The translations under genes were made by a program, and so were the position numbers. The notes beneath the pieces are model-generated. The model was not told the DNA's origin. It saw only the letters and a program-made list of their open reading frames with translations, and ran no database searches. From Mariniflexile fucanivorans (GTDB lineage: Bacteria > Bacteroidota > Bacteroidia > Flavobacteriales > Flavobacteriaceae): 64,000 nucleotides of DNA. The stretch spans positions 62,001-126,000 of the forward strand of contig NZ_SLUP01000008.1 in the NCBI RefSeq assembly GCF_004341235.1. The letters run 5' to 3'. Below are positions 22,225-26,104 of this stretch, piece after piece (the first letter of the stretch is position 1; each line of letters begins with the position of its first letter).

Positions 22225-23379
22225 ATGAAAAAAATCGGCTTTATACCTCTTAGAAAAAAATCCAAAGGAATTGCAAATAAAAACAAACGTAAAATGGTTG
22301 GCAGACCCCTATTTACATGGGTTTTAGGTGAAGCTATTTTTTCTGAATTAGACATGGTTTATGTTTATACTGATGATACTGATATTATCGATTTTATAAA
22401 TAAAGAATACCATTGGACTACTAAAGTAGAAGCTATTTTGCGAAGTGATGAAAGTGCGACCGACACCGCTTCTACCGAGTTTGCCATGTTAGAATTCGCT
22501 GAAAAAATAAATTATAATTTTGACGTATTTTGTTTACTTCAAGCCACATCGCCATTCACTAAAAGAAACGATATTAATACCTGTTTAGATAAACTTAAAA
22601 ATGGGTTTGACTCTGCTTTAACCGTTGTAAATACCCATCGTTTTTTATGGAATGAAAATGGAACAGCGATTAATTACAATCCACATAAAAGACCACGTAG
22701 ACAAGATTTTGAAGGCTTGTTGGTTGAAAATGGATCTGTTTATACCACAACAAAAGAAGCCTTACAGAAGCATAAAAATAGAATAGGCGATAAAGTAGCC
22801 GTGGTTAAAATGCCAGAAGATACCTTATTGGAAATAGATTCTGAAACAGATTGGCTAGCCGTTGAAACCTTACTCATCGAACGCCAAAAACGAGCAAAAG
22901 AATCACAAAAGATCACGCACATTGTTTTAGATGTGGATGGTGTTTTTACCGATGGCACTATTACTTATACCAAAGATGGCGAACATACCAAAGGTTTTGA
23001 TATGCGCGATGGCATGGGCCTTGAAATTTTACGTCAATTTAATATTGAGGTTATGATTATGACATCGGAACAGTCTGAATTGGTTGCCAAACGAATGCAA
23101 AAGCTAAAAATTAATCATGTGTTTTTAGGCGTTAAAGATAAATACAGCTTATTGCAACATGTTTTAAAAGAACAAAACGTATCACTAAACAACGTCGCTT
23201 ATTTAGGTGATGATGTAAACGATTTAACCAATATTTGCAGTGTGGGTTGGTCTTTAACCCCCAATAATGCTACGGATGTTGTGAAACAGCATGCAGACAT
23301 AGTGCTTTCTAAAAATTCTGGTGCAGGTGCTATTCGAGAAGCATGTCAGTTCATTTTTAATTATAATAAACGTTTTTAA
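22225..23379 (+). CDS. neuA: CMP-nonulosonate cytidylyltransferase fused to KdsC-type HAD phosphatase
   Basis: A 384-residue two-domain protein. Residues 1-220 are a CTP-transferase: FIPLRKKSKGIANKNKRKM (the variant R-x3-KGI-x-NKN loop), LLQATSPF and ENGSVYTT. Residues 230-384 are a KdsC-type HAD phosphatase with DVDGVFTDG (236-244), the T/S-loop IMTSEQSE and YLGDDVNDL. The first domain activates a sialic-acid-type sugar as CMP-sugar; the second should remove a 9-phosphate, as in CMAS-type and Bacteroides KDN/sialate systems. This suggests synthesis through a nonulosonate-9-phosphate (inference). The partner synthase neuB lies 1.84 kb downstream, separated by a repeat array. Confidence 0.9.
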   Translation: MKKIGFIPLRKKSKGIANKNKRKMVGRPLFTWVLGEAIFSELDMVYVYTDDTDIIDFINKEYHWTTKVEAILRSDESATDTASTEFAMLEFAEKINYNFDVFCLLQATSPFTKRNDINTCLDKLKNGFDSALTVVNTHRFLWNENGTAINYNPHKRPRRQDFEGLLVENGSVYTTTKEALQKHKNRIGDKVAVVKMPEDTLLEIDSETDWLAVETLLIERQKRAKESQKITHIVLDVDGVFTDGTITYTKDGEHTKGFDMRDGMGLEILRQFNIEVMIMTSEQSELVAKRMQKLKINHVFLGVKDKYSLLQHVLKEQNVSLNNVAYLGDDVNDLTNICSVGWSLTPNNATDVVKQHADIVLSKNSGAGAIREACQFIFNYNKRF

Positions 23380-23391
23380 TATAATACGCTT

Positions 23392-24190
23392 GTCACGCTG
23401 AGCTTGTCGAAGCGCATGTGTGTAGTGAACATGAGGACTTCGACAGGCTCAGTCTGACAATGCAGTTGGTAGTGATGTACGTTTGATACGCTTTGCTTGT
23501 TGAAGTGTAAATGAGTATTGGATATAAGGACTTCGACAGGACTTCGACAGGCTCAGTCTGACACTAAGGTTAGTATTGATGTACATTTGTCACGCTGAGC
23601 TTGTCGAAGCGCATGTGTGTAGTGAACATGAGGACTTCGACAAGCTCAGTCTGACAATGTAGTTGGTAGTGATATACGTTTGTTACGCTTTGCTTGTTGA
23701 AGTGTAAAAGAGTATAGGATATATGGACTTCGACAGGACTTCGACAGGCTCAGTCTGATAATGTAGTTGGTAGTGATGTACGTTTGTTACGCTTTGCTTA
23801 TTGAAGTGTAAATTAGTATAGGATATAAGGATTTCGATAGGACTTCGACAGGCTCAGTCTGACAATGTAGTTGGTAGTGATGTACGTTTGATACGCTTTG
23901 CTTGTTGAAGTGTAAATTAGTATAGGATATACGGACTTCGATAGGACTTCGACAGGCTCAGTCTGATAATGTAGTTGGTAGTGATGTACGTTTGATACGC
24001 TTTGCTTATTGAAGTGTAAATTGATATAGGATATACGGACTTCGATAGGACTTCGACAGGCTCAGTCTGACACTAAGGTTAGTATTGATGTACGTTTGAT
24101 ACGCTTTGCTTATTGAAGTGTAAATTAGTATAGGATATATGGACTTCGACAGGCTCAGTCTGACAATATAGTTGATATTGATATACGCTT
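23392..24190. repeat. Tandem palindromic repeat array, left block (8 right-end copies)
   Basis: The right-end motif CTTCGACAGGCTCAGTCTGA, or a close variant, recurs at 23438, 23542, 23635, 23739, 23843, 23947, 24051 and 24144. The spacing is 104 bp in six intervals, or 93 bp in two. The 11-bp difference equals an internal duplication of GACTTCGACAG. Each 93-bp unit is a 67-bp inverted-repeat element plus a ~26-bp spacer (GGTTAGTATTGATATACGTT and variants). The left arm is intact (CACGCTGAGCTTGTCGAAG) only at 23392-23412 and 23589-23609; elsewhere it has decayed to forms like TACGCTTTGCTTGTTGAAG. No gene lies in the block. Because the spacer is repeated too, the array probably grew by tandem amplification rather than repeated insertion. 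Confidence 0.92.
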
Positions 24191-24563
24191 GTCACGCTGA
24201 GCTTGTCGAAGCGCTAATAAATCAGGATAATTATTATGAAAACCTATTTTGTTTATATCGTAAAATGTAAAGATGATTCATTTTACACAGGAATTACGAA
24301 CAATGTATCAAGACGCTTAATAGAACATAATCAAGGTTTAGATATTGATGCTTACACGTATAAACGAAGGCCAGTGACGTTGGTTTGGTTTGAAATGTTT
24401 ACCGATCCAAACCAAGCTATTGCATGTGAAAAGAAAATAAAAGGGTGGAGTAGAAGAAAAAAGCAAGCTTTAATTGATCAGGATTGGGATAAATTGGTAA
24501 CATACTCAAAAAATTATACTCAATTTGGAAAGGGTGATGGGACTTCGACAGGCTCAGTCTGAC
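24191..24563 (+). mobile_element. 373-bp inverted-repeat element carrying a GIY-YIG gene
   Basis: Left end at 24191-24211 (core CACGCTGAGCTTGTCGAAG) and right end at 24543-24563 (core CTTCGACAGGCTCAGTCTG) are 21-bp inverted repeats matching at 18 positions. The same two ends bound the 67-bp gene-less elements at 23392-23458 and 23589-23655. Here the interior is a complete GIY-YIG nuclease gene. That is the layout of an autonomous element with gene-less derivatives. Mobility is inference: no target duplication could be identified within the array. Confidence 0.6.
24236..24562 (+). CDS. GIY-YIG single-domain nuclease inside the repeat array
   Basis: A 108-residue protein with the GIY-YIG fold: YFVYIVKCKDDSFYTGIT holds both signature strands (VYI, YTGI), Arg26/Arg27 and His31 are on the next helix, and Glu65 in AIACEKKIKGW is the likely metal ligand. 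The last nine residues (GDGTSTGSV) and the stop codon are encoded by the element's right-end repeat, so the gene and the repeat evolved together. ATG 24236 follows the left-end repeat by 24 bp. It differs clearly from the GIY-YIG protein at 699 but shares the domain and genomic setting. It interrupts the neuA-neuB gene pair without damaging either. Activity on the repeats is untested inference. Confidence 0.88.
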   Translation: MKTYFVYIVKCKDDSFYTGITNNVSRRLIEHNQGLDIDAYTYKRRPVTLVWFEMFTDPNQAIACEKKIKGWSRRKKQALIDQDWDKLVTYSKNYTQFGKGDGTSTGSV

Positions 24564-25131
24564 ACTAAGGTTAGTATTGATATACGTTTGTTACGCTTTG
24601 CTTGTTGAAGTGTAAATGAGTATAGGATATAAGGATTTCGATAGGATTTCGACAGGCTCAGTCTGACACTAAGGTTAGTATTGATATACGTTTTTTACGC
24701 TTTGCTTGTTGAAGTGTAAATGAGTATAGGATATAAGGATTTCGATAGGACTTCGACAGGCTCAGTCTGACAATACGGTTAGTATTGATATACATTTGTT
24801 ACGCTTTGCTTGTTGAAGTGTAAATGAGTATAGGATATATGGACTTCGACAGGACTTCGACAGGCTCAGTCTGACAATACGGTTAGTATTGATATACGTT
24901 TGTTACGCTTTGCTTGTTGAAGTGTAAATGAGTATAGGATATAAGGATTTCGATAGGACTTCGACAGGCTCAGTCTGACAATACGGTTAGTATTGATATA
25001 CGTTTGTTACGCTTTGCTTGTTGAAGTGTAAAAGAGTATAGGATATAAGGACTTCGACAGGACTTCGACAGGCTCAGTCTGACAATATGGTTAATATTGT
25101 ATATTTTTGTTGCGTTCTGCTAGGTAAAGCG
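24543..25131. repeat. Tandem palindromic repeat array, right block (6 right-end copies)
   Basis: Right-end motifs start at 24543, 24647, 24751, 24855, 24959 and 25063, an exact 104-bp period. The first copy is shared with the GIY-YIG element. All left arms here are of the decayed type (TACGCTTTGCTTGTTGAAG). A further, strongly degenerate left arm at 25109-25131 ends the array. The units are more alike than in the left block, so this block was probably amplified more recently. It leaves about 90 bp for expression signals of neuB. The array might also weaken read-through from neuA because each unit can form a hairpin (inference). Confidence 0.92.
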
Positions 25132-25219
25132 TTAATTTGTTTTGTAGAAAAAATAATAAAACTATCAACTAAAATTTAGATTATTCAGTGTAATTGTTTT
25201 TTCTTTATTTTGTTAAATA

Positions 25220-26104
25220 ATGAAGAAAATGAATTTATATAAAAAACCCTACATCATAGCCGAAATTGGTTGTAACCATAAAGGCGACATGGAAATAGCC
25301 AAAGAACTCATTAAAGTGGCAAAAATATTTTGCAATGCCGATGCGGTAAAGTTTCAAAAACGAAATAATAAAGAATTACTAACTGAGGAACAATACAACC
25401 AACCACACCCCAATCCTGCCAATTCCTATGGGGAAACTTATGGGGAACATCGGGAATATTTAGAGTTTGATGTGAAGCAACATCAAGAATTGAAGTTGTA
25501 TTGTGAGGAAATAGGCATTACGTATTCAACATCTGTTTGGGATCTTACATCGGCTAAAGAAATAACTTCTTTGAACCCAGATTTTATTAAAATACCATCA
25601 GCATGTAACAATAACATGAACATGTTGGATTGGTTGTGTAAACATTATCAAGGGGAACTTCATATTTCAACAGGTATGACCACTAAAAATGAAATTGAAG
25701 ACTTGGTTCAGTTTTTCAAAAAACACAATAGAAATAAAGACTTGGTGCTTTACAATTGTACATCAGGGTATCCCGTTCCGTTTGAAGATGTGTGTCTTTT
25801 AGATATTAATTTACTTATTGAAAAATATAAAAACGACGTAAAACATATTGGTTTTTCTGGGCATCATTTAGGCATTGCTGTAGATGTAGCTGCATATACA
25901 TTGGGTGCAAACATAATTGAAAGACATTACACTATCGATAGAACATGGAAAGGCACCGACCACGCTGCTTCATTAGAGCCTATGGGGCTGCGTAAATTGT
26001 CAAGAGATTTGAATGCCGTTTATAAAGCGCTTAGCTACAAATCTCAAGATATTTTGCCCATAGAACAAGTTCAACGTAATAAATTGAAAAACCAAAAAGG
26101 TTAG
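25220..26104 (+). CDS. neuB: Nonulosonate (sialic-acid-type) synthase without SAF domain
   Basis: The 294-residue product matches the NeuB barrel: YIIAEIGCNHKGDMEIAKEL (11-30), AVKFQKRNNKELLTEEQY, TSVWDLTSAKE, FIKIPSACNNN, ISTGMT, LYNCTSGYPVPFEDVCL, and RHYTIDRTWKGTDHAASLEP. It condenses PEP with ManNAc, ManNAc-6-phosphate or a related sugar. The usual C-terminal antifreeze-like SAF domain (about 60 residues) is missing; the protein simply ends after the barrel. Such short versions occur in Bacteroidota. Together with the neuA-HAD fusion it should produce a CMP-nonulosonate; no NeuC epimerase is present in the window. Twelve bases separate it from the next gene. Confidence 0.92.
   Translation: MKKMNLYKKPYIIAEIGCNHKGDMEIAKELIKVAKIFCNADAVKFQKRNNKELLTEEQYNQPHPNPANSYGETYGEHREYLEFDVKQHQELKLYCEEIGITYSTSVWDLTSAKEITSLNPDFIKIPSACNNNMNMLDWLCKHYQGELHISTGMTTKNEIEDLVQFFKKHNRNKDLVLYNCTSGYPVPFEDVCLLDINLLIEKYKNDVKHIGFSGHHLGIAVDVAAYTLGANIIERHYTIDRTWKGTDHAASLEPMGLRKLSRDLNAVYKALSYKSQDILPIEQVQRNKLKNQKG

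Follow-up and report, generated by a model that had tools for sequence, protein, structure and literature searches.

The locus described here raises the question of whether a small nuclease gene found inside an array of palindromic repeats belongs with those repeats or has come to lie among them by chance. The window analyzed, a stretch of 64,000 nucleotides (G000:C8:62001-126000) from the 4.7-Mb genome of Mariniflexile fucanivorans (G000), encodes a single-domain GIY-YIG endonuclease of 108 amino acids (24236-24562, forward strand), identified as an open reading frame with a match to the Pfam GIY-YIG profile (67.3 bits; cut-off 22.6). Residues Y7, Y17, G19, R27, H31, and E65 are invariant in an alignment of nine proteins. 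In our reading, which we consider probable, the product of the gene is a small endonuclease specific for one site, namely the hairpin repeat found on both sides of the gene, the whole forming a selfish element similar to REP/RAYT systems.

The Window Gene and Its Repeat Array

The array (23391-25084, forward strand, ~1.7 kb) contains 14 copies of the right repeat, together with left repeats of which 3 are intact and 11 decayed, which bears out the initial annotation in its description of 14 right-end copies around a GIY-YIG gene between neuA and neuB. The right repeats are 24 bp long and all lie on the forward strand (starts at 23436, 23540, 23633, 23737, 23841, 23945, 24049, 24142, 24541, 24645, 24749, 24853, 24957, and 25061); the pattern GACTTCGACARGCTCAGTCTGAYA fits 13 of the 14, the remaining copy having one mismatch. 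Decayed left repeats start at 23484, 23681, 23785, 23889, 23993, 24097, 24589, 24693, 24797, 24901, and 25005. The period of the array is 104 bp, except for two intervals of 93 bp, and among the ten 104-bp units that lack an intact left end, identity is 85-98%. The repeat pattern with at most three mismatches occurs at 118 sites in the 4.7-Mb genome, compared with 0 for the reversed pattern, so the repeats are not a chance feature of the sequence. Upstream of the array are CTP_transf_3 and KdsC-like phosphatase matches (22225-23379) and downstream a NeuB family match (25220-26104); neuA and neuB are therefore fair labels for the neighbors, the exact sugar aside.

An intact left repeat, TGTCACGCTGAGCTTGTCGAAGCGC (24190-24214, forward strand), lies 21 nt upstream of the ATG of the GIY-YIG gene, and a right repeat (24541-24564, forward strand) lies at the gene end, where the tag of that repeat, TGACA, contributes the TGA stop codon (24560-24562). 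The gene-bearing unit (24190-24564) has the same ends as two gene-less left/right pairs of 69 bp (23391-23459 and 23588-23656, both forward strand), each of the form TGTCA...TGACA. The shared inverted ends and the repeat-encoded stop codon are thus as first annotated; the bounds given at that time (24191-24563 for the element, 67 bp for the gene-less copies) need correction, and the repeat contains six whole codons of the gene, not nine. In several types and phyla, the final part of the GIY-YIG coding sequence likewise extends into a repeat (L001, L007, L072, L004, L041, L042, and L068; L213, L230, L233, L242, and L260); in L001, L007, and L072 the tag TGACA provides the stop codon.

Association of Short GIY-YIG Genes with Inverted Repeats

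A sample of 63 short GIY-YIG (PF01541) genes was taken from 25 genomes, covering the species itself, its genus, family, and order; two fragments (G021:C16:53510 and G019:C3:155921) and PF01541 matches in frames longer than 150 amino acids (for example, of UvrC length) lie outside it. Flanks were scored by comparing the 120 nt upstream of the start codon with the region from -60 to +120 around the stop codon for an inverted match without gaps, with a threshold score of at least 12; control open reading frames, 61 small and 121 large, came from ten 20-kb stretches (200 kb) of nine of the 25 genomes. The threshold was reached by 29 of the 63 GIY-YIG genes and by 2 of the 182 controls (1/61 small, 1/121 large; Fisher p 6.5e-18). 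A tag of the TGTCA/CGTC type is plain in or beside the matched arms of 18 of these 29 genes (14 by script; L048, L067, L078, and L088 by eye). Among the remainder, some have palindromes of the same types without the tag, several have no tag in the arms, and at least three of the 29 (L049, L077, and L090) carry an inverted repeat of a different kind, next to a tRNA.

Motif typing assigned the same repeat type to both sides of 28 of the 63 genes (L090 among them spuriously), a type on one side to 16, and none to 19, compared with 0 on both sides and 24 on one side among the 182 controls; this typing is partly circular, since the motif list was built from the GIY-YIG flanks themselves. The eight main repeat types occur at 2.46 per kb within 300 nt of the 63 genes; the 200 kb of control sequence has 0.015 per kb. 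The M. fucanivorans genome has ten PF01541 matches, and short GIY-YIG genes in it lie beside other palindromes as well: L007 (type A), L008 (type B, broken), L002 (type F), and L006 (type I), with repeats on one side at L003 (type G, one side by script) and L004 (type F).

Across 120 genomes of the family, type-A sites (counted with at most one mismatch) are present in 28. Their mean number is 15.9 in the seven genomes with the best type-A-like enzyme (at least 143 bits) and 1.2 in the others; at least three sites are found in 5 of these 7 genomes and in 14 of the 113 others (p 0.001). When the enzyme score is set at 105 bits or more, so that types B, C, and J are included, the corresponding figures are 14/36 and 5/84 (p 2e-5). 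The enzyme score blurs types: one of the best seven genomes (G124) and several loci at 130-142 bits have type-J flanks. Exceptions exist in both directions, G012 and G045 having a good type-A-like enzyme and zero canonical type-A sites, and G010, G090, G087, and G128 having 9-21 such sites without a clear type-A enzyme. The initial annotation had taken equal abundance of the repeats in genomes lacking the gene as a mark of chance; type-A sites are commoner, with these exceptions, where a type-A-like enzyme is present, an outcome that favors the annotation.

Repeat Type and Enzyme Clade

A maximum-likelihood tree was built from 53 proteins and 102 columns, with many weak forks; 10 of the 63 rows (fragments, genes at contig edges, broken or odd frames) were left off. 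Two sets of repeat labels were mapped onto it, an automatic set of 27 genes (minus the tRNA-linked L090) and a set of 39 genes that adds ten one-flank labels and two assigned by eye. The 27 genes, with 10 repeat types, require 10 changes on the tree, where the minimum possible is 9; shuffling labels within genomes gives a mean of 18.3 and a minimum of 13, and 0 of 1000 shuffles reach 10. Some gene pairs are orthologous loci, and a reduced set of 23 genes, from which L089, L067, L044, and L008 were dropped, also requires 10 changes (within-genome shuffles: mean 15.0, minimum 11, 0/2000 reaching 10). With the hand-completed labels (39 genes, 12 types) there are 12 changes, against a within-genome mean of 27.0. 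Repeat type tracks enzyme clade, not genome; by the hand-completed labels, eight enzymes belonging to seven types coexist in a single genome (G001). The match is close and not one to one, as type F occurs in two clades.

Recurrence in Many Phyla

A wider scan used three type-D or near-type-D proteins, and the best 80 named loci of 518 relatives were taken from it; their titles include Ignavibacteria, Cloacimonadota, Alpha-, Gamma-, and Betaproteobacteria, Chloroflexi, Nitrospirae, a cyanobacterium, and candidate phyla. Inverted ends are present at 45 of these best 80 of 518 loci (42 of the 74 with full flanks), compared with 6 of 433 positions shifted by 400 to 1000 nt. By pattern count, the ends are variants of (C/T)GTCATTCCCGCG...GCGGGAATCCA at 34 of the 45 loci; for the full-flank set, GTCA/TGAC lies in or beside the arms at 34 of the 42. 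Cross-paired flanks (upstream of one of the 80 loci, downstream of another) score at least 12 in 30% of cases; we regard these as no clean null, because the type-D repeat itself adjoins the enzyme in other phyla, and shifted positions were used instead. The short gene and the inverted tagged repeats are linked in many phyla.

A plasmid collection yielded 33 records with a match, of which eight loci were examined. Loci over the threshold are those of Azospirillum lipoferum (score 33), Novosphingobium (31), Shinella (41), Sinorhizobium meliloti (16), and N. gonorrhoeae (13); the other 3 of the 8, from R. tumorigenes, Rhizobium B21, and Sphingobium, have no inverted flanks over the threshold. The N. 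gonorrhoeae locus has whole repeats downstream of the gene and a partial repeat upstream. Its short GIY-YIG gene (L278) encodes a protein 54% identical to that of the type-D-like L045, and dRS3-like repeats come after the gene.

A chance pairing of gene and repeats is rejected by the flank test, the tree shuffles, and the shifted positions in many phyla. The proposal that the two belong together is strongly supported by the flank tests, the match of type to clade, and the recurrence of the pairing across phyla.

Repeat Structure and Folding

Among 61 distinct type-A copies from the collected loci, the three base pairs beyond the core TTCGACARGCTCA conform to Watson-Crick rules in 95, 92, and 89% of copies, compared with 55, 40, and 32% expected from column make-up; in 26 type-B copies, the outer three pairs are Watson-Crick in 96, 100, and 88%, compared with 57, 30, and 38% expected on the same basis. 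The covarying outer columns of both types show up to four pair types, and TGACA is nearly constant among the type-A and type-B copies; the next two columns beyond the outer three pairs show no covariation in either type. Since the copies are related, they do not represent independent events. Single repeats of types A and B are constrained as hairpins with a constant TGTCA tag, for which selection would be the natural reading.

With standard energies, no stable fold is predicted for a lone repeat of type A, B, or G. Predicted single-strand folds reach a z of -4.6 for one type-D repeat and -3.6 for one type-F repeat, both with an 8-bp stem and with loops of 4 and 5, respectively; type A of the window does not adopt such a fold. 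The gene-less pair at 23391-23459, taken with 4 flanking bases on each side, has a predicted fold as single-stranded DNA with a z of -5.1.

Carriers of Repeat Pairs

In the M. fucanivorans genome, 27 inverted pairs of type-A-like repeats, chosen by spacing, were examined, and 19 of them lie inside a MITE-like palindrome of ~160 bp with the ends GAGGCTGTCTGAAAAGTG or close to it. Copies of this carrier with a central type-A-like inverted pair include L038, L138-L154, L157, and one in the window at 543-674, with the ends GGAGGCTGTC...GACAGCCTC. Several of the other pairs lie inside a second carrier of ~200 bp with ends near CCCGTTGGG (L022, L026, L027, L155, and G000:C8:34985-35192), the last of which has an empty site in G005. 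These pairs lie in longer carriers with ends of their own, and the spread of the carriers should not be attributed to the GIY-YIG enzyme. The initial annotation named that enzyme as the candidate mobilizer, a role that we infer; many of the dispersed copies in this genome sit inside such MITE-like carriers.

The carriers give a place to a different origin for the array, namely slippage or unequal exchange of a MITE palindrome that was moved by a conventional transposase, with the GIY-YIG gene caught inside. The similarity among the 104-bp units and the presence of type-A-like pairs within MITE-like carriers would fit such a history, but gene and repeat are found paired again and again, across ten repeat types and many phyla, and the carriers hold repeat subtypes other than those at the array ends; we consider this origin very unlikely.

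Turnover between Species

The intergenic stretch around the array, 1840 bp in M. fucanivorans (23380-25219), is 15-16 bp long and without a repeat in three congeners (G003, G004, and G005), where the array neighbors are syntenic at ~85-87% identity. The array is thus a gain or a loss between species of one genus, of either polarity. A comparison of filled and empty sites had been suggested from the outset, and absence of the array from the syntenic site is clear in these species; the empty sites are not base-exact, and neither a target-site duplication nor a clean boundary of the GIY-YIG unit was found at those of the window. Among 39 near-clean indels (8 with palindromes) in blocks of six species, no exact target site for the GIY-YIG unit was found.

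Other sites have also changed. A second short GIY-YIG gene of the window, of type F (L004; 717-1013, forward strand, 717 being the start of the domain match, with no ATG found), is probably decayed; its TGA stop (1011-1013) lies within a type-F repeat (CTGAAACGAGTTCAG from 1010), and three type-F palindromes lie upstream (239-378; starts at 239, 297, and 364). At this intergenic site near the window start, where M. fucanivorans has type-F palindromes and a type-F enzyme, G003 has a tandem array of type-F pairs in which a short GIY-YIG gene was not seen, G001 has a second type-A gene, which sits in a type-A array of its own that differs from that of the window, and G004 and G005 have next to nothing. 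The type-B enzyme of G003 and G001 is represented in M. fucanivorans by a copy truncated by a type-G pair; at the same site there is a type-G pair in G004 and G005 and nothing in G002. At L007, the enzyme lies between two direct copies of a repeat plus tail in M. fucanivorans, and G003 and G005 have a single copy; the difference would fit equally an insertion into a repeat and a deletion of what lay between two of them.

These changes bear on the view that the enzyme is a resident nuclease for which the repeats serve as signposts (in tuning DNA uptake or in processing branched DNA), the repeats having spread by other means and selfish mobility being secondary or absent; a role of this kind is reported for the Ssn nucleases (discussed below) in natural transformation of Neisseria. 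Recognition of a single strand would suit the uptake of transforming DNA, the small GIY-YIG gene of N. gonorrhoeae is followed by dRS3-like repeats, and the two kinds of carrier hold repeat pairs without a gene. However, the presence of up to eight enzymes of seven types per genome, the broken L008, and turnover at the same sites look like the behavior of elements and not of a core function. We regard a resident role as rather doubtful and favor the selfish element described above.

Comparison with Known Systems

The element resembles REP/RAYT systems (REPtrons) in having a gene bracketed by inverted hairpins of a kind dispersed in the genome, with a tag beside the hairpin. It differs from them in its enzyme and tag: a Y1 transposase and a GTAG tag in REPtrons, and a GIY-YIG domain with a TGTCA/CGTC tag here (TGTCA/TGACA in the window). 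It is conceivable that a Y1 (RAYT/IS200) transposase mobilizes the repeats in trans. Matches to Y1_Tnp are present in 11 of the 25 genomes, all five congeners included, and are strong in G003 (where the gene is broken) and G005; M. fucanivorans could have lost a Y1 gene recently. It has none now (no PF01797), so the most familiar route of REP movement is currently unavailable in this genome, nor was a match found in G007, G010, or G014, whose GIY-YIG genes have typed repeats on both sides. Four loci examined among the 48 Y1_Tnp matches listed hold between them a single repeat of the eight types. Mobilization by such a transposase is highly unlikely, and given the matches in all five congeners we put it no more strongly than that.

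A second comparison is with the CGTC-tagged REPs. According to a 2013 survey, the tag of these repeats may also be TGTC or CCTC, the stem is 8-9 bp and begins with A-T pairs, the loop is 4-5 nt, and a CCA tail is found in most but not all; the Neisseria dRS3 and Rickettsia palindromes are among them, and they are described as having no dedicated transposase (Di Nocera et al. 2013, PMC3733652). The string "GIY" does not occur in the main text of that survey. The repeats described here share the CGTC/TGTC tag (TGTC in the window), the hairpin, and the inverted dimers. Type D fits the description in the repeat that was folded (8-bp stem, 4-nt loop) and in the CCA tail carried by many of its copies in many phyla. 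In contrast, the outer stems of types A and B are shorter, and type A has no CCA tail. We infer that the tagged repeats and the CGTC REPs form one superfamily, and the analysis suggests that short GIY-YIG nucleases are the missing enzyme of this known class of "orphan" repeats. A broader proposal, which we offer tentatively as a real possibility, is that short GIY-YIG endonucleases are the dedicated enzymes of the entire bacterial CGTC/TGTC REP superfamily, each clade with its own hairpin, and that a gene with two hairpins would be a new minimal class of mobile element, its copying driven by nicks that it makes in folded single strands.

GIY-YIG nucleases that cut single-stranded DNA, termed Ssn, were reportedly described in a Nature Communications paper of 2025, with a cognate repeat said to be present in hundreds of copies in Neisseria; the paper is said to report widespread homologs with different specificities and to focus on Neisseria and natural transformation. 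Ssn is reportedly, like the 108-residue window protein, a single-domain GIY-YIG enzyme of about 100 amino acids, and in the M. fucanivorans genome, too, a candidate cognate sequence is repeated many times, both near the gene and at scattered sites elsewhere. The covariation within single repeats would agree with cleavage specific to single strands, a reported feature of Ssn. The window enzyme most likely belongs to this family or adjoins it, and the statement in the initial annotation that no system of this kind had been described was probably too strong. The arrays, the repeat types found in Flavobacteriales-like genomes, the agreement of repeat type with the tree, and the connection with CGTC REPs are possible additions to the Ssn work, although that paper may hold some of them.

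Our literature search on GIY-YIG proteins with repeats or REPs found no paper on such a pairing. One paper only lists GIY-YIG and REP-type genes together in a table (PMC9465073), and the main text of the RepRanger paper (PMC12306157) does not contain "GIY".

The closest solved structures by sequence are UPF0213 or other small GIY-YIG proteins, 1zg2 (E 2.2e-12) and 1ywl (E 2.1e-11); we know of no repeat association for either. Intron-encoded GIY-YIG homing endonucleases have the same catalytic domain and spread selfishly through cleavage of their sites. Unlike these, a type-D and a type-G protein score 23.1 and 21.3 bits with the group I intron endonuclease model, which requires 56.05 bits, and the window protein has no match to that model. 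Insertion sequences and MITEs have defined ends and a target-site duplication; here, empty sites exist, but no clean boundary of the GIY-YIG unit was found. A defense system was also considered and rejected, the two proteins scanned having no PADLOC family match.

A Possible Mechanism

For the selfish element, the enzyme would bind the tag and hairpin of a single strand, exposed during replication, transformation, or cruciform extrusion, and nick it. Repair or recombination after the nick might then copy, expand, or move the repeat pair, with or without the gene. A repeat, the gene, and a second repeat would act as a minimal selfish element, the gene-less pairs would be its passengers, and the tandem array could be the outcome of recurrent breakage and repair at repeat sites. 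The initial annotation likewise proposed an autonomous element with non-autonomous derivatives; the gene-less pairs are likely such derivatives, while no base-exact insertion of the GIY-YIG unit was found.

Each repeat type now has a candidate enzyme with a predicted target, so a simple biochemical test is possible. If the element also moves, it would represent another kind of enzyme for REP-type mobile DNA, and the types would provide naturally occurring combinations of a nuclease with its matching hairpin from which single-strand tools could be built.

GIY-YIG Genes beside tRNA Genes

A number of short GIY-YIG genes lie beside tRNA genes: L049, L077 (G017), L052 (G002, two in tandem), L086 (G001:C1:3649293), L090 (G015:C9, two in tandem), L092 (G016), and L094 (G019). 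They form a separate, starred clade on the protein tree. The tRNA genes were found at 6 of the 7 loci, and in most of the loci, L094 excepted, a partial second copy of the tRNA lies on the far side of the GIY-YIG gene; this configuration looks like a GIY-YIG element sitting in tRNA genes.
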